Assembly (NCBI GenBank): GCA_003215475.1
Contig: QCKH01000004.1
Coordinates: 1 to 64,000, forward strand
Source: Prochlorococcus sp. AG-409-L21
GTDB lineage: Bacteria; Cyanobacteriota; Cyanobacteriia; PCC-6307; Cyanobiaceae
Direction of reading: 5' to 3'
Length of the DNA: 64,000 nt
A model generated the notes under the pieces. That model made no database searches. It had not been told where the DNA came from and worked only from the letters and a program-made list of their open reading frames with translations. Shown here in pieces: positions 8,623 through 60,365 of this stretch. Both the position numbers and the translations under genes were made by a program. Numbering within the stretch: position 1 is the stretch's first letter; each line of letters begins with the position of its first letter.

Positions 8623-9006
8623 ATGGCAGATGTAAGATATATAAATATTGATTTCCCTTTTAGGAATAGTGAAAAAGGATTTTATTTTAAATTAAATAAA
8701 ACAGATAAAGAAGCAATAAAGGCAGATTTACTTCATTTATTATTAACTAATAAGGGAGAAAGATTATATATGCCTGATTTCGGTAGTGATTTAAAAAAGT
8801 TTATATTCCAACCCAATGATAATATCACACATAGTGAAATTAGAGATAATCTAAATGAGACAATAAAAAGATATATTCCTAATTTAGTGGTGGATAGTAT
8901 AGAATTTAAAAAAAATGACGTTGAAGAAGTAATAATAGTAGAATTAAAATATACAGTAGTAGAAGGAACATTTTCATCTTCTGATGTATTACAAATAACA
9001 CTTTAA
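8623..9006 (+). CDS. gp25-like baseplate wedge protein (GPW/gp25 family)
   Basis: A baseplate wedge component with the gp25/lysozyme-like fold found in T4, P2 and other contractile systems. Seen: 127 residues, close to T4 gp25 (132), with the family signature LLTNKGERLYMPDFGSDL around residues 46-63 (conserved Glu-Arg and PxFGS-type turn), and the later segment NLNETIKRYIPNL. No signal peptide. It starts the structural block. The gp6-like gene begins 3 bases after its stop, so the two wedge partners are probably translationally coupled. Confidence 0.93.
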   Translation: MADVRYINIDFPFRNSEKGFYFKLNKTDKEAIKADLLHLLLTNKGERLYMPDFGSDLKKFIFQPNDNITHSEIRDNLNETIKRYIPNLVVDSIEFKKNDVEEVIIVELKYTVVEGTFSSSDVLQITL

Positions 9007-9008
9007 CT

Positions 9009-10832
9009 ATGGAAAAGAAAATTAATTATAATAGTAGAAATTTTGCACAAGTACGGGCAGAATTAATTGCGTTTATACAACAATATTACCCAGAAGTATT
9101 CTCTGATTTTAATGATGCATCGGTGGGTATGATGTTATTAGAATTAAATGCTGCGGTGGGAGATATGTTATCTTTCCATACAGATAGAATGTTTAATGAG
9201 ACACAAATTAATTATACACAGGAAAGGTCATCAGTCTTAGAATTAGCTAGAACTTTTGGTGTTAACATACCTGGTAAAAGACCTAGTATCACTATGGTAA
9301 ATTTCTCTGTTGTAGTACCTGTTGATAGAAATGATGGGGATAAAGCAGATTATAGTTATGCACCTTTATTATTAAAAGGGACACAAGTAAGTGGTGGTGG
9401 AAAAATATTTGAATTGGCAGACGATTTAGATTTCTCTTCACGTTTTAGTAGTAGTGGTATACCTAATATCACAGTAGTACCAAATGAAAATGCTAGTGGG
9501 GGTATAGATAATTATACACTAACAAAAAGGGCACTTGTTTTAAATGGTATAACTAAAGAATATAAAAGAGTAATTGCTAGAGAAGATTATAAACCATTTT
9601 TTGAAATAATATTACCAGAAGAAAATGTTATTTCTATAGAAAATATTATCACATTAGAGGGTACTAATTTAACCACACCACCAACACTTAAAGATTATAC
9701 TACGTTTGATAATAATTATTACGAAGTATCTGCATTAGCCGAAGCGGAAAAGTTTATTGAAGATCCTAATGTACCAAGTACTACTGAAGGTATTAAAGCA
9801 GGAAGATGGAAAAATATACCACAAAGATTTATAAAAGAATATACAGATAATGGTTTCTGTAAAATTATTTTTGGTGGTGGCGAAATTGATACTTCAGAAT
9901 TAAATGATTTTATTGGATGTAGGGGGCAAATTGATCAGATTGGTGATTTTGTTAATAATAATTCATTGGGTACTATACCAGAACCTGGAAGAACAATGTA
10001 TGTAAAATATAGAGTAGGTGGTGGTGCAGATAGTAATGTTGGACCTAATGTACTTAAAAGTTTAGGTGAGGTGTTTATGGTAACTCCGGGAGAAGACCCA
10101 GCAATTAATCTAAATATAAGAAATAGTTTAACAGTAAATAATGTATTACCTGCAATTGGTGGAAAAGAGCAACCTTCAATAAATGAAATAAGAAATTTAG
10201 TTAAATATAATTTTTCATCACAAAATCGATGTGTTACTATCAAAGATTACCTTTCTAGAATTAGTTTAATGCCTGGGAAGTTTGGTGTACCTTTTAGAAC
10301 AGGTGTGTGGGAACAAAGAAATAAAGTTAATATAACTATTTTAGCGTTGGATGGAGATTCCAAACTTACGAATACGTCTACAAGTACACTTAAAGAAAAT
10401 ATTTCTGAATATTTGGCAGATTATAGAATGTTAAATGATTATGTCACCGTAAAGGACGGTAGAATTATTAATTTATCTTTTGAAATATCTCTTTTTACCG
10501 ATAAATCAACATCTAAAGGTGAGATTATGTCAGATGTTATTGAGAAAGTTGATGAATATTTTGATATTAATAAGTGGGAGATGGGTGAAAATGTTTATTT
10601 AGCACAATTAATTGAAAATATTAACAATGTAGGTGGTGTTTTAAATGTTACTGACTTAAAAATATTCAATAAAGTAGGTGGGAAATATTCATTAAATGAA
10701 ATCTCTCAACCTTATATAGATGATGCAACTAAACAAATAGACATATCGGATGATTATACCTTATTTGGTGAACCAGATGCTATGTTTGAGGTTAAATTCC
10801 CAAATAAAGACATTAAAGTAAGATTTAAATAG
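9009..10832 (+). CDS. gp6-like baseplate wedge protein (baseplate J family)
   Basis: In T4, gp6 dimers join the wedges into the baseplate inner ring. Seen: the N-terminal pattern FNDASVGMMLLELNAAVGDM (residues about 36-55) and FHTDRMFNETQINYTQ, characteristic of gp6/J-type proteins; a later NRCVTIKDYLSRI segment; and a C-terminal domain with SEYLADYRMLNDYVTVKDG, also typical. The length of 607 residues is near T4 gp6 (660). Its position directly after gp25 is classical for contractile baseplate operons. No unusual residues or breaks. Confidence 0.93.
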   Translation: MEKKINYNSRNFAQVRAELIAFIQQYYPEVFSDFNDASVGMMLLELNAAVGDMLSFHTDRMFNETQINYTQERSSVLELARTFGVNIPGKRPSITMVNFSVVVPVDRNDGDKADYSYAPLLLKGTQVSGGGKIFELADDLDFSSRFSSSGIPNITVVPNENASGGIDNYTLTKRALVLNGITKEYKRVIAREDYKPFFEIILPEENVISIENIITLEGTNLTTPPTLKDYTTFDNNYYEVSALAEAEKFIEDPNVPSTTEGIKAGRWKNIPQRFIKEYTDNGFCKIIFGGGEIDTSELNDFIGCRGQIDQIGDFVNNNSLGTIPEPGRTMYVKYRVGGGADSNVGPNVLKSLGEVFMVTPGEDPAINLNIRNSLTVNNVLPAIGGKEQPSINEIRNLVKYNFSSQNRCVTIKDYLSRISLMPGKFGVPFRTGVWEQRNKVNITILALDGDSKLTNTSTSTLKENISEYLADYRMLNDYVTVKDGRIINLSFEISLFTDKSTSKGEIMSDVIEKVDEYFDINKWEMGENVYLAQLIENINNVGGVLNVTDLKIFNKVGGKYSLNEISQPYIDDATKQIDISDDYTLFGEPDAMFEVKFPNKDIKVRFK

Positions 10833-10878
10833 TTACTTTTTACTATATGTGAATTAGTTTTAAAAAAAAATAGAAATT

Positions 10879-11292
10879 ATGGGATGTGATACATGTAAAC
10901 AAAAAAATAGTAAAAATTTAGGAGAAGGTGAAACAATTAATTTATTACCTTCAGAAATAATTAAAGGAGATTTTAGTATTTCTGGGATTTTAATTAAATT
11001 TATTGCTTTTGTAGTAATATTAATTGCTATACCCCCAATTATATTGATATTGGCGGTACAATTATTCTTACAATTCTTTTTCCCTAAATCTTTAATTAAA
11101 TTAACTAAAAAACTTAACAGTGTAGTAAGTAATATTTTTACTAAGTATAGTAGTTTTATTGTAAATAGAAAAATTAAAAAAAGAGAAAAACAATTTCAAA
11201 ACAATACTAAGTATGAAGTAGAGAATTATGTTAATGAGACTGGCCAAGAATTCGAATTTGAGGTTTATGAAAATAATGAAAAAGAGAAATAA
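10879..11292 (+). CDS. membrane-anchored small protein in the baseplate block, 137 aa
   Basis: Starts MGCDTCKQK, giving a CxxC pair at the extreme N-terminus. Two adjacent hydrophobic segments (about residues 36-72, including LIKFIAFVVILIAIPPIILI) form one long or hairpin membrane region. The rest is basic and then acidic (ENNEKEK end). The gene lies between the gp6-like protein and the 1637-residue protein, 8 bases before the latter. A membrane protein in a baseplate operon is unusual. It could be a virion component that inserts into the host envelope or an assembly factor. No family recognised. Confidence 0.82.
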   Translation: MGCDTCKQKNSKNLGEGETINLLPSEIIKGDFSISGILIKFIAFVVILIAIPPIILILAVQLFLQFFFPKSLIKLTKKLNSVVSNIFTKYSSFIVNRKIKKREKQFQNNTKYEVENYVNETGQEFEFEVYENNEKEK

Positions 11293-11300
11293 GGATAAAT

Positions 11301-14300
11301 ATGTCGAAATCTATTCGAATAAGAACAACACCAAATGGAGACGATAAATACATTAAGGTTGAACTTAAACAAGATTTCGATCTACTCGAAATATTAAGTT
11401 TAAAGATAAAACAATCTGATGTTTATGGTAATTTCTGTTCAGGATATGGGGTTGTTGCGGGTAGAGTAATAATAAATAATGGATTTGGTGTTCCTAATGT
11501 AAAAGTTTCCATTTTCATTCCTAGAGATTCTGATGATAGTCTTTTAGAAAAATTATATCCATATACTAGTCCGACTCCCGATCAAAAAAATATTAATGGT
11601 ATTAGATATAATTTATTACCTGATACCCAACAGACATTCGATCATACACCTGTAGGTACATTTCCTACTAAAATGTCTATTTTAGATGATAAAACTAATT
11701 TAGAATTGTATGAAAAATATTATAAATTTACCACAACTACAAACGAAGCCGGAGATTTTATTTTATTTGGTGTCCCTACAGGTAATCAAATACTTCATTA
11801 TGATATGGATGTTAGTGACATTGGTTTTATATCGGCAAGACCTTTTGAATTAGTGGAACAGGGTTACTCTAAAGAATTATTTGAATCTCCTTTTAAATTT
11901 AAATCTAGTACAAATTTAGATAGTTTAACACAGATAGTAAGCCAAAATATACCAGTATTGGTTCAACCTTTTTGGTGTGATAGTTTAAGTACGGGAAGAG
12001 TTATTGGTATTACTAGAGAAGATATTAGTATCGATAGTATGGAACTTATCCCAACGGCAATGTTTTTTGGGAGTGTATTTAGTGATGATGAAAAAGATTC
12101 AATAAATAAAAATTGTAGACCTAGAAAAAAATTAGGTAAAATGAGTGAAGTTATTACTTCTTCAGGAAATATAGAAGCAATTTATAGAACAATAGATGGG
12201 GATATAGACAAATATGAAGTAGGACAAGATGTTATCGATGATAATGGTAACTGGGCAATACAGTTACCAATGAATTTAAGAAAAGTTGTAACAGATGAGT
12301 TCGGTAATTTAATTCCTAGTCCTGATGGTATAAAGGGTATTGCAACAGAAGCAGATTTTAGATTTAGAATCAGTATGGATGCAACTAGTGAAGATAAAAG
12401 ACTTAGACAACGAGCTAAGTTTTTAGTACCTAATCTTACGGGTAATTATAATTTCGACATTTATGATGCACCTGAATTAACTTCAGATTACCCTTTTAAA
12501 ATTAATGAACAATTATCTACCCTTACTCAAAACACACCGTATTCTGCAGACACAACTAACCAATACAATTATTTAGAAGAATTTTATACTTTCCGATGGA
12601 AAAAAGTTTACACAATTAAACAATTTATTGGTAGATATCAGTCAGTTAAAAGTGATGAAAGTAGGGCATTTACTGGTGTTAAAGATATTTTATCAGGTGA
12701 AGCGGTTAATAAATTCCCTACGAATAGAATAGATGTAAATGTTAATTTTTTATATACTATTATTTGTATACTTTTAAGTTTTTTCGCACAAATTGTAGGA
12801 ATTATAAATGGTATTTTAAATATAATAAATGGATTAGTAACTGCCATATGTAATTTTAAAATACCTTTTGGTCTGTGCTCAACTTCATATAAAGGCCCAC
12901 GATTAAAATTAAAATTTAAGACATGGAAAGGTGATGGGGGGTCAGGTTGGAATTCAGATGGTGATAAAAAAGGTGATTATAGTGATGTTTTAGATCCTGA
13001 TACAATAAGTGGTGGTGATGTTGAGGTTTCACTGGGATTAAATGCTTCTTGTAATGATTTAGAAGAGTTATTAGAAGATTACCCCGCAGAAACATGGCAA
13101 AATATGGCGCCTAATGAAAGTCCTAACGCAATTGAGACTTCTCCTGGGGTTAATATTCCAGGAAGATTCCCTGAGAATTTTTGTGGTGGTAGTACTAATT
13201 GTAGTTGCCCAAACGGTATGCCTAGTTCAGGTAAATATTGTTATAATTATGGTGGTTGTCAACCTGGTGGTGCATCTGTAGGGTCAACTGGTTGTAGAAG
13301 ATGGCAACTTGATAATGGTGACATGGAAGGTGCGTGTAACGCAGTAAAAAAAGGTACTAATCAGACAATTAAAGATAATTGTGATGGTCTTAAACTTTTA
13401 GGTAGATGTTGGCAACTTAAAAATAAATGCTTATTTGCAGGTGGTTTATGTAAAAAATGTGATGATATTTGTGACTCTACCGCCCCTAAACATAGTTGTT
13501 GTCCTCCCTCTTATGCTGAAGGATGTCCTAGTAATGATGCCGTTTGTGGTGGTACAGGAGACTGTTGTTCAAAATGTTGTGGTAAAATACCATTAATTAA
13601 ATTAAGGTGTCCTGAAGAACTTAATTTCCCTCCATTAACTATATCTACAATTCCAACACCTTTTGCTAGTGATGTGTGTAATTCGGTTTATGTTGCACCA
13701 GGTGGGTGTATTTCTTGTGCGGGTATAGAAACCGCAGGAATCAGAGATTGGGTTGCTTGTAAATTAGAAAAATTAGCTGCAATTCTTAATATGGTTAAAT
13801 TTGATTTTTATAATGATTGGGTAAGTGGTACATTATATTTCCCTCTAATAAAAAGAAAATATAAAGTTAAGAAAAATAAAAAAGGAAGGGGACAAATAAA
13901 AAAGGATAAATTTTGTGATTTTGACTGTAGACCAGATTATCAAGAGCCACAGACATATAAAAAATATAGATATAAAATTAAGAATAATACATTATTCCAA
14001 AATGAGACTATATCAGTTAATGGTTGTTCAGTAACATTTAAGGCGAGTTATAGGTATGTAACACAGTGGTATGGGACATATGGGCAAGACCCTGTAGCTG
14101 CACAAGCAGCCGCAAATCTTGCTGCTAGAGATGAATTAGTATTTCATGGGGTTGATAGTAATTTAAATGCATGTACCTTAAAATTTAGTGATTCTGCGGT
14201 AAGTCAGGCAATAACTAATAATTCAAATATGTCTGTTACCTTACAAGATAAAACTTTTCCAGGACCACATGGTAAACCTAAATATATTAAGGCAGATGAT

Positions 14301-16214
14301 CCTGTTACGGGATTAGAAACTTGGGAAAATGTAGGGGGGCACGGACATCATCAAAATAGATGTAATAGTGTTTATAGGGTAGAAAGACAAGAATTTTTTA
14401 GAACTACTTTAGGGTGTGATGGTGTGGTTAATCCTGCCGCCCTTGGAACTTATATTGCTAATGGTACAGACATTGAAACTACCGACCCTGAATTAGAAGA
14501 TGGTGTAGGTAGTAGTTGTGTAGGTAATAATAATTGCTCCTCAAAATGTGAAAATGGTGTTAAACCTTGTAATATATTATGTCCTTGTGGTGATATTTCT
14601 GGTGGGTATAATGATAATAATATAAGACATGGGGTTATAAAAATGGAAAATGACACTATTTACTACGCTTCATTAATTAAAACAGGTGATAATGTATTTA
14701 ATGACAAAAATTATAAAGCAAACTTATTATTCCCAACCGATATTAGTGAAATGGGTAGTTCGGTTACATGTGATATAGATGAAGTACCTTTTATAATTGG
14801 AGAGTTAGAACCTACTACATTTGAGGTTAGTGAAGAAAATCTTTCATATAAGATAGATCAAAGTACTAACCCACAAAAGATTGAAAAAGTAGAAGATAAG
14901 GATGCAGAATTAAACTTAAGGGCATATGTTAGTTTTGGATGTACATTCGCTAATTGTGTAAATACAATGGCAACCGCAAACCAATCTCAGATAGGGGTAG
15001 AAATGTTAGATAGTAATGACTTAGGTATGGAAATAGGTAATTGTCAAACATATTTTTTACACGATAGTGATGTAAGAGAATATTTTTGTAGAAGATTTTC
15101 TACTTATACTGACGGAAATTTAAACATTAACTATATGAGACCATCATCAAATGAATTTGATAATGTATATAATGAATATGAAAATCAAACATTAACTAGT
15201 ACTATTACATTTGAAACTGAAGATGGATTGATTGTGGATAACACATATAATGATGCAGATGAGTTTTTAACTGGTGATAGATGTGGGTTAAAGACTGATA
15301 ATACACCTAATTATTTTTATGGTATTGGTGTAGGTGGTGCACAACAGTTCTTTAATGATTTTCCCACAAATTCATTTATTGATGATTTAGGTAACAACGC
15401 TAATTCTTATGGTATTAAATTCAGTACATCACAAACACCTTATTATCATTATTTTGGTATTGTACCTGGTAATACCTCATTACATAAACTAGTAACTAAT
15501 TATTTTGCTGATAAGATAGATAAAGTTACTTTACAAGGTTTAGGTGAAAATGAATTAGCCGCAGAAAACACTTATAACCAACCTAATTTTAGAAATGTAG
15601 AACAAAATAAATTTACAATATTAAAAACTTGTTTAGGTCAAACACAAGTGGCAATGGCAACAGAGGTAGATAATAGTGGGGGAAGTACTGGTGGAGGAAT
15701 TAGTAATTTCGGTGGTGGAATTGTAGCACAAACTGTAAATAATATTATTGCATCTAATTTTAATCCTGGTACCGGTGGAGTAGCACCACCACCACCGGCA
15801 TATTATAACCCACAATTAGATAATGGTACTAGTAATGGTGTAGGGTTAAACTGTTCTACAGGACTTTCACAAAAAACTGGTACAATAACAGTCACCCAAA
15901 CACCATCCTTAGTTACGGTAGAAGTAGATGGTGGAAATACGGCATTAGCTAACAATGTATCAGGTGCCTTTGGTGTTGAGATATTTAACCCTAATGGTTT
16001 TTATACTCCATCACCGCCTGAAGTTACTATAGAAGATAGTCCTAATGCTACCACACAACCTAGTGCATATAGTAACCCATTAAATGGTACTATAAATACG
16101 GGTGACTTAAAATATTATAATATAGTATTCAATAACACAGGTACTTACGATTATACTTTAACGTATAATTGTTTAAATAGTAATCAAAACGGTTATATTG
16201 CTTTACGTACATAA
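11301..16214 (+). CDS. giant cysteine-rich baseplate/tail structural protein, 1637 aa
   Basis: A very large structural protein. Residues 1-110 contain GVVAGRVIINNGFGVPNVKV, like the carboxypeptidase-regulatory beta-sandwich found in surface proteins. Residues about 480-517 form a strongly hydrophobic stretch (FLYTIICILLSFFAQIVGII). Residues about 523-820 are packed with Cys, including CSCPNG, SCCPP, CCSKCCG and many CxxC spacings. A second Cys cluster (CENGVKPCNILCPCGD) lies near 1080-1097. A proline run (PPPPPAYY) near 1494 precedes a beta-rich C-terminal domain. Its position after gp25 and gp6 is that of the largest wedge protein (T4 gp7), but I see no direct similarity to gp7. Disulfide or metal binding is not decidable from sequence alone. 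Confidence 0.85.
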   Translation: MSKSIRIRTTPNGDDKYIKVELKQDFDLLEILSLKIKQSDVYGNFCSGYGVVAGRVIINNGFGVPNVKVSIFIPRDSDDSLLEKLYPYTSPTPDQKNINGIRYNLLPDTQQTFDHTPVGTFPTKMSILDDKTNLELYEKYYKFTTTTNEAGDFILFGVPTGNQILHYDMDVSDIGFISARPFELVEQGYSKELFESPFKFKSSTNLDSLTQIVSQNIPVLVQPFWCDSLSTGRVIGITREDISIDSMELIPTAMFFGSVFSDDEKDSINKNCRPRKKLGKMSEVITSSGNIEAIYRTIDGDIDKYEVGQDVIDDNGNWAIQLPMNLRKVVTDEFGNLIPSPDGIKGIATEADFRFRISMDATSEDKRLRQRAKFLVPNLTGNYNFDIYDAPELTSDYPFKINEQLSTLTQNTPYSADTTNQYNYLEEFYTFRWKKVYTIKQFIGRYQSVKSDESRAFTGVKDILSGEAVNKFPTNRIDVNVNFLYTIICILLSFFAQIVGIINGILNIINGLVTAICNFKIPFGLCSTSYKGPRLKLKFKTWKGDGGSGWNSDGDKKGDYSDVLDPDTISGGDVEVSLGLNASCNDLEELLEDYPAETWQNMAPNESPNAIETSPGVNIPGRFPENFCGGSTNCSCPNGMPSSGKYCYNYGGCQPGGASVGSTGCRRWQLDNGDMEGACNAVKKGTNQTIKDNCDGLKLLGRCWQLKNKCLFAGGLCKKCDDICDSTAPKHSCCPPSYAEGCPSNDAVCGGTGDCCSKCCGKIPLIKLRCPEELNFPPLTISTIPTPFASDVCNSVYVAPGGCISCAGIETAGIRDWVACKLEKLAAILNMVKFDFYNDWVSGTLYFPLIKRKYKVKKNKKGRGQIKKDKFCDFDCRPDYQEPQTYKKYRYKIKNNTLFQNETISVNGCSVTFKASYRYVTQWYGTYGQDPVAAQAAANLAARDELVFHGVDSNLNACTLKFSDSAVSQAITNNSNMSVTLQDKTFPGPHGKPKYIKADDPVTGLETWENVGGHGHHQNRCNSVYRVERQEFFRTTLGCDGVVNPAALGTYIANGTDIETTDPELEDGVGSSCVGNNNCSSKCENGVKPCNILCPCGDISGGYNDNNIRHGVIKMENDTIYYASLIKTGDNVFNDKNYKANLLFPTDISEMGSSVTCDIDEVPFIIGELEPTTFEVSEENLSYKIDQSTNPQKIEKVEDKDAELNLRAYVSFGCTFANCVNTMATANQSQIGVEMLDSNDLGMEIGNCQTYFLHDSDVREYFCRRFSTYTDGNLNINYMRPSSNEFDNVYNEYENQTLTSTITFETEDGLIVDNTYNDADEFLTGDRCGLKTDNTPNYFYGIGVGGAQQFFNDFPTNSFIDDLGNNANSYGIKFSTSQTPYYHYFGIVPGNTSLHKLVTNYFADKIDKVTLQGLGENELAAENTYNQPNFRNVEQNKFTILKTCLGQTQVAMATEVDNSGGSTGGGISNFGGGIVAQTVNNIIASNFNPGTGGVAPPPPAYYNPQLDNGTSNGVGLNCSTGLSQKTGTITVTQTPSLVTVEVDGGNTALANNVSGAFGVEIFNPNGFYTPSPPEVTIEDSPNATTQPSAYSNPLNGTINTGDLKYYNIVFNNTGTYDYTLTYNCLNSNQNGYIALRT

Positions 16215-20843: not shown

Positions 20844-23800
20844 ATGCCACAACAAAATCAAAATAACACCAATAATAATAATAATAGAAAAGTTATTAAA
20901 GTAGCGGGCTATGCGAAAAGAAAATTTTTCGATGGTGGTATTGAATATAGAGATTTTAGTGATGATTTAGTTGGTTTACAATTAACTGATGATGGTGGTT
21001 CATCGTTATTTACGATGGGTAACTTTAAAGTTACTACTAATTTATCCCCTAAATTAAATAAAACGTATAATCAGGGTACATATTCTGATTTTTATGATTT
21101 AGATAGTTTGGATGATAAACAATTTGGTGCGGTAAAAGTACAAAAAAACCAAAAAGCGGGATTAAATTTAGATATAACAAATCCTTTAAGTTATATTTTA
21201 TATGGTTCTTCCGAAGAAAAAATTAGAGTTTCATTGGAATATATACAAGAATATTTTCCAGCCGCAATTTATGTAGATAACAAAATAGGTGCAATAACGG
21301 GTAATAATATCACAGATTATGTCTATGATAATTTAAATGATGAGACTAGTTTTACTGTTAGTACTAATTATTTTACCAATCCTTTTGGTATAAATTATAC
21401 ATTATCTTATAATCTAGTACCTGAGGATCAGATACCCAATCCACTAAGAAATTTAACAGTTAATTACAATCAGTATGTTATAGAACATAATGGAATAAGT
21501 AAAAAGATAAAATCTTTTAGTGGTTCTACTACTAAAACTAATGCAACATTAAAATTTGTTGTAGAAGGAAATCCCTTTCCTGAAATAACAGGATTAAATT
21601 TTTCACAATTTACTTTTTTAAATCCTACTTATAATGCATCTATTCCATTTTTTGTAAAACCAAATGAATTAAAGTGTGAAGAATTTTTCAGTGGTTTGAA
21701 TGACTTAGAAAAAAACTTATTGAATAGAGATGTATACCCTATTTATACGGCAACTTTTAGTCTACCAAAAGAAACCACTCAGGGGGTTATAGTTTATAGT
21801 GATGAAAAGATAACTTTTCCTGTTTTAACAGATGGATACAATCTTAACTTTTTTGATGGGATATATATTACTTATTTAGATGAAATCACTTCTATTGGTG
21901 AAACTTTAGATAAGTTTAAAACTGATATTATAAAGAGAAAATATACTGCAGAAGTTATAACAGGATTTGATACTATCCCTAGGGGTGATGGTGGAGAAGA
22001 TATGGTGATAGATGGTGCAAAAGCAACTAAATTACTTAGAATTTATGGGGTTGAGTTTGATGAAGTTAAAAAATATATTGACGGTATTAAATTTGCACAT
22101 GTTGTTACTTATGATAAGAAAAATAACACACCTGATTCATTAGTAAAAGATTTAGCTAATATGTTAGGGTTTAGTAAATTTGATTTCTTAACTAACCCAA
22201 ACATTTTAAATAATGTATTACCGAGTAATGGTAAAGGATTATTTAGTGGTACATCTACACCACTTAGTTTAGAACAAATAGATATTGAGTTATACAGAAG
22301 ATTAATATTAAATGTTGCTTGGTTATGGAAAAGTAAAGGTACACGTAAAGCAATAGAATTCTTATTTAGATTTATTGGTGCACCAGAATCTTTAGTAAAC
22401 TTTAATGAACATATTGTAATTGCAGATAAACCCGTAAATATACCACATTTAAAAAGTTTATTATATTTGTATACGGGTAGTTCTAATTTGAAAGATTTAC
22501 CATTCGATGATGATGGTTACCCCTTACCAATACCCAACGGTGGATTAGTATTAGTTGGTTTTGATAACACTACTACACCACCATCACCAATATATGAAAC
22601 TAATTGGTTTCAAAAATCTGGTGGGTGGTATAGAGAAACTGGTGGTTTAAACCCACCTATTGATATAACTGAGGATAATAATCCACACGCGGGTGTATAT
22701 GATGGTGGTGCATTTTATTTAGAACAATTTTTAACCTGTCCATTTCCAAATGAGATAGTTAGTAAGTTTATTACTTTAACAGGTAATACACTTTATGAGA
22801 ACCAATTTATAAATTATAATGATGGGTTTATAAATGGTACAATGGATAATGATATATTATATATTACTCCAGTATCTTCAGTTAATAATCAAATAATAAC
22901 CGAAGGTATTGATATTGATTTTACTGTGGTATCTTCACCAGCAACTTCAGGAGGAACTACTATTTTTGAACAATTATGTACTGAAGCACTCGAAGAATAT
23001 AATGAATGGGTAGAACTAATTAAAGAAAATTGTGAATTGATTTACTCACCCGAATGGTTTAGAGTACAACAAAATTATATTGTTGCGAAAAATAATTTAA
23101 ATAGAGAACAAAGTAGTAGGGGAACAGGTATTAATGAAGCATTAGAAATATGTATAAATGTTGATTGTGAAAATATTGAAGTTATAGAAAACCCTTGTGA
23201 TCATTATGAGATGATTAATGAAGATGGGTTTATATATTTTGTTAATGAAAATGGTAAAAAGGTATTTTTTGAGGAATTTCCTCAATGTTGTGTTTCGGCA
23301 GGTGGAGAATATTATACATATGTAAACCAAAAAAATCAAAAAGCATTCTTTTGTGCTAGCGAATCCCCTTGTATAGGAAATCCTATTAGTAGTAATGGAG
23401 AAGCAATTTTATTTGAAGTAGAGGGAGTTAATGCAGTTCCCGATAATATTATTTCAATAACTACCCCGAATAATGATAGACCCACAAACGATGCTAGACG
23501 CACCACAGAAAATGAGTTATGTAAAGAAAATAGTGGTAGTAATACACTTAATGGGTGTTTCCAATTAACCGAACAAGGAGAATATTACTTTGGTTTTAAA
23601 ACTAAACCTAATGAAGAAGATTTTAGTACTAAAATTAGTCCTAGAGAAGCACCTTTTGTTGTATATGATAAAAATAATAATCCTGTAGGGTATATCCCAC
23701 AAGTTCCTGGTATGACTTTATTTACGGAAGGAATTGTTGCGATTAATTATGTTAAAAGTAATGGTGGTATTGTTTATCCATCTTATCAGTCATCGTTTGG

Positions 23801-26800
23801 AAACAATTCCGAATCAAGTGATCCACAACAAGCCTTAGATAAATATGTGAATAACATACGACAAGGTGGTGAAGTACCTTCAGACTTTTATAAATATTTT
23901 ACATCAGTTGATTGTGATAAGAAAAATACTACTTATGAATCTAGTATAGAATGTTGTACATATCATGGATTCGATCATTATTATGTGAATATCACTGACC
24001 CAACGGATGGGTCGGTTAGACAAGTTGTTTATTGTAGACCTAAAGATACTTCAGCAACTGGTGATCTTACACAACCCTCTACACCTGGTTTAGGGGATAT
24101 ATTAGACCCAGGAAAAGAAATAGATAAAGAAATAGAAGTAATAGAAAGAGAAAAAGAAGTAATAAATAAAAAAATAAGTGAAGAACCTTCTTTATCAAGT
24201 AAACAAAAAACCGAATTAACTACACAAAAATTAACTTTAGAACAACGTACACTAGATTTAAATTCGCAAAAACAAAAAATGGAAGTGTCAAATCGTAAAA
24301 CTATGACACCTGCCAATGAAAAAGGGTTTAATAAATACGTAGAAGGAAGTAACCTCAATGCAGTTAAAACAGAAGGTGATCAATTAGTAGTAGGGAAAGA
24401 CCCTAAAGGTGTATATACACAGGGAGTTGACTCTACAAAACCAAATAACCCAACCACTGATTTTGGTTCACCATTTAGTAATCCAGACTTAATGGATAGT
24501 ATTAATTGGGAAGTTGCTTCAGTAGATCAATATGGTAGAATAACATTTATACCTATAGATCGTAATTATGATGATGTCTTAAGTTGGGAATTATTGGCAG
24601 GAGAAGGTGCTGATTTATACAAAGAATGTTGTTTATTACAAGGTTATACTTTTGGAGAATTCCAAATTAACCCACAAACAAATGAGTTAATACCCTATAA
24701 CGGACAACCTAATGAATATACTAATGGTAGTACTTTTTATGCTTGTGTAGATAATACAACCTTACCTTGTACCGAACTTAAAGATGTAAAATTAGTTTTT
24801 GGTAGTAATGGTAATAATGGTTTCTTTTTACCGGAAAATACAGAAAGTAATGAGGTAACCATTAAGTTTGATTATATGATTAAATATAATGCAGAAGAAT
24901 TAATTAATTGTGCAAATATAGAAGTATGTAAAATACCATTAGATTTATATAATAATAGTATCTATAACTTAGATTGTAGAAACTTTATCGTCTTTACTCA
25001 AACCGAAGATAATAAGAATATTTTAAAAGATAATATAAACTATATTGATTCTGACGTATTTGCACAGAATGATTTTAGTTTAAATTCACCCAATGTAGGG
25101 GATTTAGTTGTAAGTGAATTAGATGGTATACCTAATTTAATACCTTATTGGTCAACACAAAACTTACAAGTATGGCAAACTCCTGGTTTACAACAACAAA
25201 TAGATGTAGAGGGAGACTGTTGTAAAGCATTTGGTGGTAATTTATTACCAATAGAACAATGGGGTCCGGTAAACGAAGATAATGTTTATAATATTAGACG
25301 TGAGTTTAATATTGCAATCAAAGCAATTTCTAATAATACACGACAACCAGAATGGGTAACACCTGAAATGTATTCTAATTTTAAATTAATCAACGATAAC
25401 TTAAATAAGGTTAATAAAATTATAGAAGAAGGTTGTTTAAACTATACTCTATTTACGGAAGATAATTTCTGTGATGATTTTGAAAGATTAATAACAACTG
25501 AAAAGGTATGTGCGTTACTAACACCATTAGAATTAGGGGTTAATAGTGAAATGCTAAAAGAGTATTGGAAACTAATAAACCAACTTTTATTAATGCAAAA
25601 AGAACTAGAAATCTGTGTTGAAAGAAAAGAAGGTTTAAGTAAGATTATTGAAGAGGTAGATAAAGAAATGGTTTTAGTAGAAGTAGAAAAAGAAACTAAA
25701 AGAGGAGATTATAGAAAAACAGAAACTAATTTAGAAAATGACCTACTAACTAAACAAAGAGAAATTTTAGAAATTGATGATACATTAACTAACTTAAGAA
25801 ACCAAAATACGGCAATTGATGTAGTTAAACAAGATAATTTACCTAAATTAGATTGTAACTTATACCAACAACAGATTAAAGAGGCACAATCATTTAATGT
25901 TGAGGAATTTTGTAGAAATCAACCACAACCTACTACAGATAATCCAGATGAGATTTTATCTGCATTTAATACATGTGTAAATCAAAAAAGATTTGAGATA
26001 GAACAAGAAGTAAAAAAATATCAACGATTATTTGAAAGTTGTGTTAATAGTAATGTTTATAGTGAAGAAATAACTAGGGCTAGAGTTAATAATGATACTA
26101 TAACTGAAGAAAGATTTACAGAAGAGTATAATACTACATTAAAACAAATAGATGAATTACAAGCAACAATTTATTGTGAAGATATTAGTGAGTTAAATGA
26201 ATCTCTTAGAACAAATAAGGAACAAGAAAATAATATTGAAAAAAATGTAGATGTTGTTGCAAATATTTTAGGTGTTGAACCAACTACTATTAGAAATGGT
26301 AATACAACTGATTTAACTACCGAACAAAAAGTTGAGGTGACTAGAGTTGCTAATGTGAATAAAACAACAGAAAATAAATTATTAATACAAAAAGAAGAAA
26401 AGGAACAAGAATTAAGAAGTTTAGAAACTTTTAAAACACAAGTACGAAATGAATTTAAAGAACAAGAAAGAGAATTAGATGAAAACCTAACCAATATAAA
26501 TAACATTAAAGAAAATATTGTTACAGAAAATAATAATACGGTAGGTAGGGATTGTTGTAAAGAAACTTTAAATGTTGTACGTAAATTAGTTAGTAATATT
26601 AAAAAATATAGAAATAATTTATATTATGAAACCGAAGCACTATATCAAGGGTGGTATTTACAAAGATTTGAAGAATATAAATTATTCGTCAATGAGAAGA
26701 TGGCAACTGCTTTTGAATATATGGATGAATTAAACCTTAATTTTAATATTGAAGTGGATAACACTTCTGTGGGTAGTCAACCACCTAATCAAATATCTTC

Positions 26801-28979
26801 TAATCTAACTACTTTACCAATAATGGGTAATAGTAACCCCATTTGGACATTCCAACCTAAAAATTATAGTGGAGTCGTTATTGGTGGGTCACAATACAAT
26901 TCAAATCTAATTGAAGATTCAATAACAACCGCATTAATACAAAATGGGTATCCTGGTTTAGATGCAGTATTTGAACCACAATGGCAAAATTTTGAGATGA
27001 CATTACCTCAAAATGTAATAGATAATTTAAGACAAAGTTACCCTAATAAACAATTTTATATTTCTTTGGAATTAGAAAATTATGAATGTAGTGTGTGTTT
27101 ATTAATTGATAATATTCAAATAAATTATAAAACATACGATATACTACCATTTTATAATACTGAGGGTTGTGGGTTACCAGAATTAAGTTGTGTTATAGAT
27201 AATAGAAAATCTTGGGTATATAAAGGAGATACAATTAACCCAGTTACTCACTTACCTGATGGTGAATGTCAAAAAAATGAAGTAACTTGTGCAACTCCAC
27301 TACAAATAACTGCACAAAATAGATTATGGCAAAATTTAGAGTATAGATACACTGAATATGATTTTAATCATTCAGATTTAATCATCAACAGTAAATCTGC
27401 AGCATTTCAGATAGATCCGTCTAAGTCTATTGAATGTGATGTTTATAATTTTTGGAGAAATATTGATTGTGATGAATGTCCTACCTCTTGTACGAGTGGT
27501 GAAAGTATTACATATGAAGGTAAAGTACAATATACTGCTAGTTCTTACACTGATTACAGTGTTGTATTGAGTGGTACTTCTGCTGGTGGTTTCACAGGAG
27601 ATTGTAATACGTATGTGAGTTTATTAAATACTAATACTAATTTATTAAAAGAAGAATATTATGTATTAACGGCAGATTATTCACAAGCATTAAGTGCTGG
27701 ATACACTGATTTTATTAATATTGGTGGTAGTATAGACACATTAAACATAGTAGAGAATGATTGTCAGGGTGATACTATAGTGTTAGGAAATAGATTTGAT
27801 TTAAATGAGGAACAAAGATTAATTGTTGAGGATAGTGACGGAACGGTTTCTTTATGGGGACTTTATGTATATACTGGTTCGACACCTTATAGTGGTGGTG
27901 ATATAAATGAAGTTATTAGTGGTGTATCTGCACAAACATTTAATCAGACTAGTGGTATGACAGAAGAATGTTGTGAATCATTAAATAAAACATTATCATC
28001 TAAAGGTAAAAAAGGATTAAGTTTAGATAAAAATTATGTGTGGGACACAACATTGAGTGGTTGTACTTGGAGAGAAATTAATGATGGTCAAGGAGATTGT
28101 ACACATTGTGGTAACACTACCGAATCTTCCTTTACTGCTACTAGTAGTGGGTTAACTTGTGAAGTAGTTAACAAAACGATATGTGTAAATCCGGTAGATT
28201 TCTTAGATACTCCCCCATCTCAAATAAAAGTAAAAGAGGTGTTTGATGAAATGGTACAGAGAAATTTAATTAATGCACAAAATAGACAAACACTTAGTGG
28301 ATACCCAACACTTAAACTATTTTACGAATTATATTTAAATGCAACTAATTGTGGTAAAGATTATAGTGGTAAGTTAACTTACAATAATCTATTCCAATTT
28401 ATGGATTTAATTGGGGATTATTGGTTAGAATTAATTGAACAAGTAATTCCATCTACCACTATTATGGAAGGGTGTGAAAACTCAGGTAAAGTTTATAGGA
28501 ATACTATTTTTGATAATAATAAATTTACCTATAAGAAATACAGTTTAAACTTCTTAGAAGTAACTAATGAATGTAATGTTAGTGGTGTTACAAATAATTC
28601 AATAGGTCAAGAAACTGTAGATGTTGCAGTTGAAGAAGTTTGTTTAGGTGGTGGATGTTTAGGACAATCTAATAAAGATTGTGAAGATAGTATAAGTGTA
28701 TTACAAGGACAAATTGATACGTTACAATCCACTATAACTAGTATTGATGATCAATTACAAGTAATACAATTAGCAATAACATCATTAAAATCACAAAATA
28801 ATAGTAATAATACTAGTAAAGAAACGTCTAAAGAAAATACGTTTAAACAAAGAGAAGACGAAAAGGCAAAAAAAGAAGAAAATAATAAAATTAAAGAGGA
28901 GGTAAGAAGACAAGAAGAAGCAGCAGCTAGAGAACAAAAAGCTAGGGACGCAAGAAATCAAAGAGATCAATTAAGTTAA
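20844..28979 (+). CDS. giant multidomain baseplate/tail protein, 2711 aa
   Basis: The largest gene in the window. After a Gln/Asn-rich start comes a beta-rich N-terminal domain. At residues about 474-520, ELYRRLILNVAWLWKSKGTR and FRFIGAPE form the 'KGTRxxIxxLxxxxG' pattern found in P2 I-like baseplate tail proteins. Further on, at least four CCxxxG units (residues about 814, 1034, 1260, 1456), most followed by aromatic residues and a later Cys, look like repeated small domains. A related CC unit without the Gly lies near 2375. Coiled-coil stretches lie near 1090-1150, 1575-1960 and at the C-terminal 100 residues, which end in a basic/acidic helix. The coiled coils suggest a long, trimeric or fibrous portion. 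It is probably the structural link from baseplate to fibres, inferred from size, position and motifs. Confidence 0.85.
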   Translation: MPQQNQNNTNNNNNRKVIKVAGYAKRKFFDGGIEYRDFSDDLVGLQLTDDGGSSLFTMGNFKVTTNLSPKLNKTYNQGTYSDFYDLDSLDDKQFGAVKVQKNQKAGLNLDITNPLSYILYGSSEEKIRVSLEYIQEYFPAAIYVDNKIGAITGNNITDYVYDNLNDETSFTVSTNYFTNPFGINYTLSYNLVPEDQIPNPLRNLTVNYNQYVIEHNGISKKIKSFSGSTTKTNATLKFVVEGNPFPEITGLNFSQFTFLNPTYNASIPFFVKPNELKCEEFFSGLNDLEKNLLNRDVYPIYTATFSLPKETTQGVIVYSDEKITFPVLTDGYNLNFFDGIYITYLDEITSIGETLDKFKTDIIKRKYTAEVITGFDTIPRGDGGEDMVIDGAKATKLLRIYGVEFDEVKKYIDGIKFAHVVTYDKKNNTPDSLVKDLANMLGFSKFDFLTNPNILNNVLPSNGKGLFSGTSTPLSLEQIDIELYRRLILNVAWLWKSKGTRKAIEFLFRFIGAPESLVNFNEHIVIADKPVNIPHLKSLLYLYTGSSNLKDLPFDDDGYPLPIPNGGLVLVGFDNTTTPPSPIYETNWFQKSGGWYRETGGLNPPIDITEDNNPHAGVYDGGAFYLEQFLTCPFPNEIVSKFITLTGNTLYENQFINYNDGFINGTMDNDILYITPVSSVNNQIITEGIDIDFTVVSSPATSGGTTIFEQLCTEALEEYNEWVELIKENCELIYSPEWFRVQQNYIVAKNNLNREQSSRGTGINEALEICINVDCENIEVIENPCDHYEMINEDGFIYFVNENGKKVFFEEFPQCCVSAGGEYYTYVNQKNQKAFFCASESPCIGNPISSNGEAILFEVEGVNAVPDNIISITTPNNDRPTNDARRTTENELCKENSGSNTLNGCFQLTEQGEYYFGFKTKPNEEDFSTKISPREAPFVVYDKNNNPVGYIPQVPGMTLFTEGIVAINYVKSNGGIVYPSYQSSFGNNSESSDPQQALDKYVNNIRQGGEVPSDFYKYFTSVDCDKKNTTYESSIECCTYHGFDHYYVNITDPTDGSVRQVVYCRPKDTSATGDLTQPSTPGLGDILDPGKEIDKEIEVIEREKEVINKKISEEPSLSSKQKTELTTQKLTLEQRTLDLNSQKQKMEVSNRKTMTPANEKGFNKYVEGSNLNAVKTEGDQLVVGKDPKGVYTQGVDSTKPNNPTTDFGSPFSNPDLMDSINWEVASVDQYGRITFIPIDRNYDDVLSWELLAGEGADLYKECCLLQGYTFGEFQINPQTNELIPYNGQPNEYTNGSTFYACVDNTTLPCTELKDVKLVFGSNGNNGFFLPENTESNEVTIKFDYMIKYNAEELINCANIEVCKIPLDLYNNSIYNLDCRNFIVFTQTEDNKNILKDNINYIDSDVFAQNDFSLNSPNVGDLVVSELDGIPNLIPYWSTQNLQVWQTPGLQQQIDVEGDCCKAFGGNLLPIEQWGPVNEDNVYNIRREFNIAIKAISNNTRQPEWVTPEMYSNFKLINDNLNKVNKIIEEGCLNYTLFTEDNFCDDFERLITTEKVCALLTPLELGVNSEMLKEYWKLINQLLLMQKELEICVERKEGLSKIIEEVDKEMVLVEVEKETKRGDYRKTETNLENDLLTKQREILEIDDTLTNLRNQNTAIDVVKQDNLPKLDCNLYQQQIKEAQSFNVEEFCRNQPQPTTDNPDEILSAFNTCVNQKRFEIEQEVKKYQRLFESCVNSNVYSEEITRARVNNDTITEERFTEEYNTTLKQIDELQATIYCEDISELNESLRTNKEQENNIEKNVDVVANILGVEPTTIRNGNTTDLTTEQKVEVTRVANVNKTTENKLLIQKEEKEQELRSLETFKTQVRNEFKEQERELDENLTNINNIKENIVTENNNTVGRDCCKETLNVVRKLVSNIKKYRNNLYYETEALYQGWYLQRFEEYKLFVNEKMATAFEYMDELNLNFNIEVDNTSVGSQPPNQISSNLTTLPIMGNSNPIWTFQPKNYSGVVIGGSQYNSNLIEDSITTALIQNGYPGLDAVFEPQWQNFEMTLPQNVIDNLRQSYPNKQFYISLELENYECSVCLLIDNIQINYKTYDILPFYNTEGCGLPELSCVIDNRKSWVYKGDTINPVTHLPDGECQKNEVTCATPLQITAQNRLWQNLEYRYTEYDFNHSDLIINSKSAAFQIDPSKSIECDVYNFWRNIDCDECPTSCTSGESITYEGKVQYTASSYTDYSVVLSGTSAGGFTGDCNTYVSLLNTNTNLLKEEYYVLTADYSQALSAGYTDFINIGGSIDTLNIVENDCQGDTIVLGNRFDLNEEQRLIVEDSDGTVSLWGLYVYTGSTPYSGGDINEVISGVSAQTFNQTSGMTEECCESLNKTLSSKGKKGLSLDKNYVWDTTLSGCTWREINDGQGDCTHCGNTTESSFTATSSGLTCEVVNKTICVNPVDFLDTPPSQIKVKEVFDEMVQRNLINAQNRQTLSGYPTLKLFYELYLNATNCGKDYSGKLTYNNLFQFMDLIGDYWLELIEQVIPSTTIMEGCENSGKVYRNTIFDNNKFTYKKYSLNFLEVTNECNVSGVTNNSIGQETVDVAVEEVCLGGGCLGQSNKDCEDSISVLQGQIDTLQSTITSIDDQLQVIQLAITSLKSQNNSNNTSKETSKENTFKQREDEKAKKEENNKIKEEVRRQEEAAAREQKARDARNQRDQLS

Positions 28980-51551: not shown

Positions 51552-52088
51552 ATGAACCAACATGATGAAACAAGAAAAATATTAGAATTAATTAGAGAAA
51601 GTGGTAGAAAAGTATCTCCCACTAAAAAATTAATTAATGAGCAAGACATAAGCGCCCAAAAACAAGATGAAAATGCGTTAGACCCTACAGAAATTAGAGA
51701 ACAAGAAAGGTTATTTAGGGATACTGTAACACAAAGAGTTAAATTTAATCAATTAAAATTATATCCTAAGGCTCAGAATGTAGAATGGAGTGGTAAGTTT
51801 ACGGATAATGAAATTGAATGGTTTTATTCGTTAGATGATTCACAAGGGGTTTATATTACAACTGACTTATTACAACTTAGGGAGGATACAATGAAATTAC
51901 TTCAAAAGTTAATAGGTTATTATAAAACATGGTCAGAAGATTGGGCAAAAAGAATTGCAGAAGAATATGAGAATGATTTGGTAGACGAAGAAAATGCTGA
52001 AGAAGGACCAGAAAGTTTAGAATCACCAGGATTTGGGGAAGAAGGAGGAGGTGAAACTATGCCACAAACCCCAACTACCGATGCTTAA
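51552..52088 (+). CDS. acidic hypothetical protein, 178 aa
   Basis: Begins MNQHDETRKILELIRESGRK, an N-terminal helix of the type repeated in several genes of this block. The C-terminal 45 residues are Glu/Gly-rich (EENAEEGPESLESPGFG). The middle has a WSGKFTDNEIEWFYSLDDSQ segment. No catalytic motif or membrane segment. Its stop is read through by the overlapping start of the next gene (ATGCTTAA). A virion protein is plausible. Confidence 0.75.
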   Translation: MNQHDETRKILELIRESGRKVSPTKKLINEQDISAQKQDENALDPTEIREQERLFRDTVTQRVKFNQLKLYPKAQNVEWSGKFTDNEIEWFYSLDDSQGVYITTDLLQLREDTMKLLQKLIGYYKTWSEDWAKRIAEEYENDLVDEENAEEGPESLESPGFGEEGGGETMPQTPTTDA

Positions 52089-52461
52089 AATTAATATAGA
52101 CTTAAAGGCAATCTTAATATTATCACTAGCCGTTGCACTGGTTTTAAGTTTAGTGTTTAGACCTAGTGTGCCTATAGAAGAATATGAGAAGGAGATTGAA
52201 ATTTTAAAAAGACAAAATCAAGAGTTGATGATGTCTAATGATAGTATTACTAAAGCAAATAATAAATTACAGAAAGAAATTGAAGTAATATTATATGCTA
52301 TTGATAGTACTAAATCAGTTTTAGCTGCAACTGAACATAAATTAGAAGAATTAGAAAAAAGAAGAAATGAAGTATCTAATATCGTTGATAATATGGATAG
52401 CGATGACGTTACCAATACTATCTCAGACTATCTCAAAAGGAGAGGTCAAAACAATCGTTGA
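52081..52461 (+). CDS. membrane protein with periplasmic coiled coil (i-spanin-like), 126 aa
   Basis: An upstream in-frame ATG lies at 52033, but the one at 52081 (MLKINIDLKAILILSLAVAL) overlaps the previous stop and puts the membrane segment at residues 8-26, so it is preferred. A long coiled coil with two polar repeats follows (IEILKRQNQELMMSNDSITK). The topology resembles an i-spanin. The last 95 bases overlap the next gene in another frame. Confidence 0.75.
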   Translation: MLKINIDLKAILILSLAVALVLSLVFRPSVPIEEYEKEIEILKRQNQELMMSNDSITKANNKLQKEIEVILYAIDSTKSVLAATEHKLEELEKRRNEVSNIVDNMDSDDVTNTISDYLKRRGQNNR

Positions 52462-52825
52462 TGATAGTGGTGACACATTAGTTATTATGAACTTAGAAGA
52501 CGCTAAGGTAATTCTTAATGATCTTTTAGAATATGAAATTGCAGATAGTTTATTAACTGTATATAAAGAAAAAGATTCTTTAAATACTGAAACAATTACA
52601 CTACAGAAGGAAGTCATATTTAAATTAATGGAAAAATCCGATAACCAAGCAGAGCAAATAAAAAACTTTCAACAGTTATTAGATAATAAAGATGAAGAGT
52701 TAGGACATAAAGATGATACTTTAAAACAGTATAAAAAAGAACTAAGAAAACAAAAATTTCTAAAATTTTTAGGTTTTGGTGGATCAGTAATTTTACCTAT
52801 TATCGCAATATTAATTTTAGTCTGA
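52367..52825 (+). CDS. exported coiled-coil protein with C-terminal membrane anchor, 152 aa
   Basis: The ATG at 52367 starts within the previous gene. The resulting N-terminus MKYLISLIIWIAMTLPILSQ is a good signal peptide, cleaved likely after Ser-Gln, so the overlap seems real. A coiled-coil stretch follows, then a C-terminal membrane segment (SVILPIIAILIL). The pair with the upstream gene recalls overlapping spanin genes, but there is no lipobox Cys and it has a C-terminal anchor, so it is not a standard o-spanin. Confidence 0.75.
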   Translation: MKYLISLIIWIAMTLPILSQTISKGEVKTIVDDSGDTLVIMNLEDAKVILNDLLEYEIADSLLTVYKEKDSLNTETITLQKEVIFKLMEKSDNQAEQIKNFQQLLDNKDEELGHKDDTLKQYKKELRKQKFLKFLGFGGSVILPIIAILILV

Positions 52826-58957: not shown

Positions 58958-59383
58958 ATGCGGTTAATTGTAAATGAAAGACAATATAAAGAGTTATTAT
59001 CAAACCAAAAACAGAACCTAAGTACGGGAGATGAATGGGTAAACTATATTAGTGATTTCACAATAACCAATCTAGAAGATAAAAATTTACTAGAAAGTGT
59101 ACTAACAAATAATAATTTAAAATATAAATTAGGTAAGTTTAATTTTTATAAAAAATTACCTATAGATAATATTATTTTAAATGTTTATAGTGAAGAAAAC
59201 TCACCATTTAATTCCGAATTTGATGAAAGAGAAATATTTATAAATGAAAATAAACAGATAAAAAATGTCAATATTAATATTACTATAGATAAACTCCTAA
59301 CATTAGAAGAACAAATAGATAAAAATAATTTAAAGTTAACCTTACATAAAATAAAAGAGTGGTATGAAAATAATAATAAGTGA
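58958..59383 (+). CDS. hypothetical protein with IVNExQY N-terminal motif, 141 aa
   Basis: Begins MRLIVNERQYKELLSNQKQN, a variant of the short motif seen at the start of the next protein and within the minus-strand ParB-like protein. The remaining sequence is Asn-rich and helical/strand mixed. It overlaps the next gene by 20 bases. The shared motif suggests common localisation, perhaps in the virion. No enzymatic motif. Confidence 0.75.
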   Translation: MRLIVNERQYKELLSNQKQNLSTGDEWVNYISDFTITNLEDKNLLESVLTNNNLKYKLGKFNFYKKLPIDNIILNVYSEENSPFNSEFDEREIFINENKQIKNVNINITIDKLLTLEEQIDKNNLKLTLHKIKEWYENNNK

Positions 59384-60365
59384 AAAGCAATTAAAAATAC
59401 TTAGAGAAGATAGTATATCTTCAGAAACTGACGTTGCATTAGATGATTTGAAAACTGCGGATCATTGGGTGGATGAGTTAGATGGTAAATATATTAAACG
59501 ATATAAAAAAAATAATGTGGATCACGTAAAACGTATACAGACAATGTTAACATTATTGGGTTACGATGTAGGACATTACGGTGATGGTGAACCAATGATA
59601 GACGGTATTTATGGACCGGACACCGCAGAAGCAGTAAGAGATTACCAAAAAGATGTATTCATTGAACCGATTGAGTGGGACTCAATTATTGGCCCTAAAA
59701 CGTATACGGAATTATATGATGACATAGAAGAATTAGGAGATGATCACGCTATGTCAGTAGAAGAGGTATTATTATTGGGGTTAGATGATGAAAACATTAT
59801 GGGGGATGAAGATGATCCACATTATGATGACGAGGAAGATGATGAAGAAGAGGAAGAAGAAAATGATGATTTTGAATATAGTGATGGGATAGAAAAGTGG
59901 TTCGCACCTATCTCAGAAGAAGGATCGGGATGGGAAATAAGGTATCACGATCATTTTGGATCTGGTAAATATGGTGCGAGTAGAGGTAATAGAATTCACA
60001 AAGGATTAGACATTATTTCAAATAAAGACGAAAAGGTATTTTCCCCTATGGATGGAAAAATTACGAGAACATTTCACCCATATAGTGATAAATGTAGATT
60101 TTTAAAAGGGGTAGAAATTGTAGGTGAAGGTGAATATTCGGACTATAAAATGAAATTAATGTATGTGGATTTAGAAGATAATGTAGATACTGGAGATAGT
60201 GTTAAAAAAGGAGACGTAATTGCCATCCAGCAAGATTTATTGGAGTGTTATCCACCCAAACATGGTAAAAGTATGACTAATCATATACATTTTGAAGTGT
60301 ACGAAAATGGAAGGAGTATTGACCCTGAACAAATAATAGATATGGAAAGACCTATAATGGTATAA
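59364..60365 (+). CDS. M23 metallopeptidase with peptidoglycan-binding domain
   Basis: Seen: MKIIISEKQLKIL at the N-terminus (shared motif), a peptidoglycan-binding repeat at about residues 50-110 (QTMLTLLGYDVGHYGDGEPM, IDGIYGPDTAEAVRDYQ), an acidic linker of about 50 residues (EEDDEEEEEENDDFEYSD), and a C-terminal LytM-type domain with HKGLDIIS (first His and Asp ligands), a DGKI-type turn, and NHIHFEVYENGRSIDPEQ with the HxH. All M23 ligands are present. It cleaves peptide cross-links of peptidoglycan. No signal peptide: probably virion-associated or lysis. Confidence 0.9.
   Translation: MKIIISEKQLKILREDSISSETDVALDDLKTADHWVDELDGKYIKRYKKNNVDHVKRIQTMLTLLGYDVGHYGDGEPMIDGIYGPDTAEAVRDYQKDVFIEPIEWDSIIGPKTYTELYDDIEELGDDHAMSVEEVLLLGLDDENIMGDEDDPHYDDEEDDEEEEEENDDFEYSDGIEKWFAPISEEGSGWEIRYHDHFGSGKYGASRGNRIHKGLDIISNKDEKVFSPMDGKITRTFHPYSDKCRFLKGVEIVGEGEYSDYKMKLMYVDLEDNVDTGDSVKKGDVIAIQQDLLECYPPKHGKSMTNHIHFEVYENGRSIDPEQIIDMERPIMV

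Follow-up and report, generated by a model that had tools for sequence, protein, structure and literature searches.

The window, the whole stretch of 64,000 nucleotides analysed here, opens contig C4 of a 1.34-Mb assembly, and the same stretch occurs as an IMG/VR contig of 83,794 bases. Two genes on its + strand adjoin as they do in myovirus-type baseplate operons: a gp25-like gene for a baseplate wedge or sheath initiator protein (8623..9006, 127 aa; PF04965, E 1e-14; phrog_261, E 2e-22) and a gp6-like (Baseplate_J) wedge gene (9009..10832, 607 aa; phrog_219, E 4e-23; phrog_10646, E 9e-18), which matches PF04865 just over its cut-off and is distantly related to genes in Flavobacterium phage immuto and others. 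Tail sheath (PF04984) was detected in four of eight related records, in two of them over the curated cut-off; the 84-kb contig to which the window belongs, a fragment, yielded none. After gp6 comes a spacer of 46 nt (10833..10878, + strand) with AT-rich repeated elements, TTACTTTT...TTAGTTTTA, that could be a promoter; it is followed by the small gene studied here (10879..11292, + strand, 137 aa) and, 8 nt further on, by a giant ORF (11301..16214, + strand) encoding 1637 aa with 54 Cys. An earlier note on this DNA had placed a 137-residue protein with a long hydrophobic region between gp6 and a giant Cys-rich protein, a description that our analysis confirms on both points.

Other ORFs of the window are worth recording. 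The one at 20844-28979 encodes 2711 aa and carries a TailP2I/gp7-like motif, YRRLILNVAWLWKSKGTRKAIEFLFRFIGAPE, seen by eye; because of this motif the gp7/gpI equivalent may be this ORF and not the Cys-rich giant. Equating the giant with T4 gp7 was set aside, as no gp7 appeared among its Pfam, PHROGs, PDB-sequence or Foldseek matches. The overlapping ORFs at 52033-52461 and 52367-52825, which both have a hydrophobic segment at the N-terminus and a tail like a coiled coil, resemble a spanin pair. The ORF at 59364-60365, having an M23 peptidase and a peptidoglycan-binding domain, probably encodes an endolysin or virion hydrolase.

The small ORF begins with ATG, and its product (MGCDTCKQ...) is strongly hydrophobic in its middle and charged in its tail. 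Its Kyte-Doolittle 19-mer peak of 3.18, at residues 42-60, is the highest among the window's + strand ORFs of at least 50 aa. In the AlphaFold2 monomer model, built from 86 sequences (mean pLDDT 79.5, pTM 0.40), both ends are disordered and the hydrophobic region forms one continuous helix of 34 residues (34-67; 10978..11079, + strand) with a central Pro52/53 and a block pLDDT of 94 over residues 41-60; the protein is thus predicted to be single-span, and a two-span hairpin was set aside. A second, basic helix (residues 72-105; 11092..11193, + strand) leads into a disordered acidic tail. The N-terminal Cys pair, CDTC (residues 3-6; 10885..10896, + strand), precedes the hydrophobic stretch, and a bacterial lipoprotein, in which a signal peptide is followed by the lipobox Cys, was rejected on this order. 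Application of the positive-inside rule across the family gave no clear orientation, with 42 members in favour of one side and 40 of the other.

When gp6 was used as query 30 loci were retrieved, and wherever the downstream sequence was readable a small membrane ORF of the MxCxxC type was present before the giant. Queries with the N-terminal part of the giant gave at least 563 and at least 580 confirmed relatives per scan, 80 loci being kept from each. The homologue survey that the earlier note had proposed for this locus gave, among the matches listed, 93 distinct small proteins of 78-171 residues, every one encoded just upstream of a giant homologue, so the order gp6, small gene, giant is conserved, a result in favour of the earlier note. 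In 139 of 140 loci (again among the matches listed) the gene immediately before the small one is gp6, the sole exception, L127, starting too near its contig end. The carriers, a large group of uncultured contractile phages, have contigs as long as 345 and 362 kb among them. The gene is single-copy in all nine large records tested that bear it (S+) and absent from all nine S- records.

A Cys pair near the N-terminus is found in 92 of the 93 relatives (CxC 46, CxxC 43, CC 3). As half of the family has CxC, the conserved feature is a pair of Cys among the first ~8 residues; the N-terminal CDTC pointed out by the earlier note is present in the window protein but is not conserved as such. An uncharged stretch of 20-35 residues containing Pro occurs in all 93, and the last 35 residues are net negative in 79. 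Distant members are 12-49% identical to the window protein, and the small protein changes much faster than the N-terminal part of the giant; dN/dS lies between 0.11 and 0.5, below 1 in all 17 pairs examined, and the gene is evidently under purifying selection. The frame is broken at two loci, by an in-frame stop in L007 (5673-6161) and by a frameshift in L012 (2245-2661), either through sequencing or assembly error or through real loss.

Pfam and PHROGs searches with 86 members of the family returned nothing beyond scattered matches below the cut-off, to unrelated membrane families; a holin identity was considered and rejected, no holin profile being among these matches. The PDB sequence search with the small protein gave low-score membrane segments only. 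No relative of the small protein or of the giant was found in the isolate phage records searched, distant members being included as queries, and the GTDB genome contigs searched contained no relatives. Judged by its sequence, the small protein is a member of a new, unnamed conserved family.

The giant is rich in beta-sandwiches in its N-terminal part: over the first 1000 residues AlphaFold2 predicts beta-sandwich domains plus one hydrophobic helix, the protein not being helical overall. This helix of 35 residues (483-517; 12747..12851, + strand) has a hydropathy peak of 2.41 and a pLDDT of about 90, and a hydrophobic segment at about residues 450-520 is found in every S+ giant long enough to test. 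A Cys-rich stretch covers about residues 584-820 (13050..13760, + strand), and according to sequence comparison the insert is closed by an FYNDW motif (residues 836-840; 13806..13820, + strand). Foldseek against the PDB yielded weak matches to pilin, adhesin and teneurin domains. An uncharacterised viral protein of Myoviridae sp. ctPuP5 (a BFVD relative) matches along its full length; searches for literature on this phage and on the contig found nothing.

Throughout the family the spacing between the small gene and the giant is tight (median 8 nt, with overlap in a dozen loci), compared with a longer gp6 spacer (median 49 nt), which indicates that the small gene goes with the giant. To map its presence we used a tree of 104 rows built from the N-terminal part of the giant; two changes account for the distribution of the small gene, versus 20.2 with shuffled labels. 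One of the two is a loss inside the S+ clade: L113 and L155 lack the small gene, with gp6 intact and all frames open. Their giants are about 770 aa long and run almost directly from 'NPFPYNKI' to 'FYNDWINGSLY', so that FYNDW is retained (at residues 464 and 480, respectively) and the helix and Cys-rich stretch of the window giant correspond to the missing part: in L113 the hydrophobic helix and the Cys-rich insert are gone, and in L155 they are reduced to a weak segment. The sisters L110, L133 and L031 have the small gene together with the helix and the Cys-rich stretch of the giant. Distances of the small protein and of the giant's module remain weakly correlated after removal of shared history (partial r 0.16, permutation p 0.001). 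The view that the small protein and the membrane/Cys module of the giant are one working unit rests most strongly on the joint loss in L113 and L155, and from these comparisons the small protein probably serves the membrane module of the giant as a dedicated partner.

A deep sister clade has gp6, about 72 nt and then the giant; the small gene is never there, and the giants have 1-4 hydrophobic segments. A conserved AACTATTTAT-like element, possibly a late promoter, is located about 15-20 nt before the giant start in L164-L192, in the clade without the small gene. A different protein of 516-542 aa, with one or two Cys at its very start (MGFLCK, MCILCK), directly precedes the giant in L152, L160, L161 and L163. 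L155 also contains, between gp25 and gp6 on the opposite strand, a 527-aa ORF with repeated KIHNDKYDYS motifs (506-2089), perhaps a mobile endonuclease gene.

The conserved gene, its fixed position, its tight spacing, the predicted single span and the joint loss are the observations on which we base a tentative proposal, to which we give somewhat less than an even chance: that the small protein and the giant form a single membrane-engaging module of the tail baseplate, located at the tail tip and entering the host envelope upon firing. The two proteins would be in physical contact, the Pro-kinked helix of the small protein pairing in the membrane with the 35-residue helix of the giant and its Cys pair sitting close to the Cys-rich stretch; a Cys pair beside a Cys-rich partner suggests that a disulfide or a metal site may join them. 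Carried in the virion, the pair would end at the tail tip, penetrate the host envelope once the baseplate fires and so act at entry. The more specific version, in which the small protein and an adhesin-like giant constitute a virion-borne spanning module that inserts into the host envelope and provides an entry path for the DNA or an anchor, we regard as rather unlikely. The earlier note had suggested a built-in pore or a membrane docking part for DNA entry, and this is supported in part. Docking fits the joint loss with the hydrophobic module of the giant. A pore made by the small protein by itself is made less likely by the single span, and any pore would have to be built by an oligomer or with the helix of the giant; with that amendment a pore or docking part for DNA entry is possible. 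The host is likely to be of the two-membrane Bacteroidota type, given a T9SS C-terminal signal and a BamA-like protein in the same assembly and provided that the binning of phage and host holds; a search for GldK found nothing.

Several observations weigh against this pairing at the tail tip. The joint loss is one event, seen in two related contigs; hydrophobic giants without the small protein in the sister clade mean that such a giant does not always need it; and the small protein evolves fast, as core baseplate parts seldom do. The small gene is broken in L007 and L012, through error or real loss, and the partial correlation of 0.16 is weak. A free hydrophobic span would, moreover, enter the membrane of the producing cell, so that an extra step would be needed to reach the virion. 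This last point fits an assembly-only partner, a chaperone or inner-membrane anchor that would capture the giant's helix during synthesis and remain in the cell. Translation of the small gene just before the giant suits such a helper, as do the fast evolution and disordered tails, which are appropriate to a non-structural protein, and the same joint loss, spacing and synteny would be expected of it. It does not account, however, for the Cys pair being more constant than any other feature, and no known chaperone family was matched. We consider this explanation a serious one, if on the unlikely side; it is nearly as likely as an entry module at the tail tip, which is the reading we favour.

Other proteins of contractile-tail baseplates are soluble, and the helix of the small protein might be buried in the baseplate too, for instance in a soluble bundle with the helix of the giant, which would make the protein a small plug or linker within the structure; with 34 and 35 residues the two helices could pack against each other. 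We judge this improbable, since a membrane span is indicated by a hydropathy of up to 3.2 and by 20-35 uncharged residues that have Lys/Arg flanks and a central Pro. Small phage membrane proteins often have holin, lysis or exclusion roles, and some phages hold lysis genes among their tail genes, so a holin, lysis regulator or superinfection-exclusion protein could by chance be located within the baseplate operon. That is more doubtful still: no such family was matched in Pfam or PHROGs by 86 members, the spanin-like overlapping genes and the M23 endolysin-like gene lie 40-50 kb away, and the joint loss with the giant's module is not predicted. As for a spurious ORF or a chance conservation, the low identity among distant members could be read in its favour, but the dN/dS values of all 17 pairs, together with an open frame and a fixed N-terminal motif in 93 distinct sequences, refute it in practice.

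Little is understood of how contractile phages pass their DNA over the inner membrane once the outer layers have been pierced by the tube. The pair of membrane-helix proteins at gp6, in a widespread phage group and with a natural joint loss, offers named genes and clean predictions, with which one can ask whether a membrane part can belong to the baseplate itself. Flavobacterium phage immuto and Microcystis phage Mel-JY01 share the gp25-gp6 order and a homologous gp6 (25-28% identity), but in neither does a small membrane protein follow gp6, nor does either contain a match to the giant; in both, as in LR756508, other, non-membrane genes come after gp6, and these three related loci agree with the view of the earlier note that a membrane protein is abnormal for such operons. 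Tape-measure and ejection proteins of tailed phages have hydrophobic helices in the virion and help the DNA through the inner membrane. A case from HK97 is cited in PMC12619734. Those proteins are found in the tail lumen or the head, whereas the small gene and the giant adjoin gp6 and the giant lacks an overall helical fold.

Compared by description, the Moraphages (PMC12619734) and the bS21 jumbo phages (PMC9723584) come from uncultured aquatic sources with probable Bacteroidota hosts, and they have gp25 and gp6 or sheath genes and a size similar to that of the 345- and 362-kb records; the sections consulted of both descriptions do not mention the small protein. In the T6SS membrane complex and in the anchoring of thylakoid contractile injection systems (CIS), dedicated parts tie a contractile machine to a membrane (as summarised in PMC12237407). 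Those parts stay in the producing cell, whereas a phage particle must be released, and the small protein matched no T6SS membrane family. In kind, the small protein can be compared with CisA of Streptomyces (PMC12237407), a bitopic membrane protein without which its contractile injection system cannot fire and which has been proposed to link the baseplate with the membrane before firing. Both are single-span proteins, by prediction in our case, encoded with a contractile machine. The small protein has an N-terminal Cys pair, and the sections consulted of that paper mention none for CisA, which is far larger, possesses an extracytoplasmic domain and acts in the producing cell, outside the particle, whereas the module favoured here would be part of the virion and enter the host envelope.
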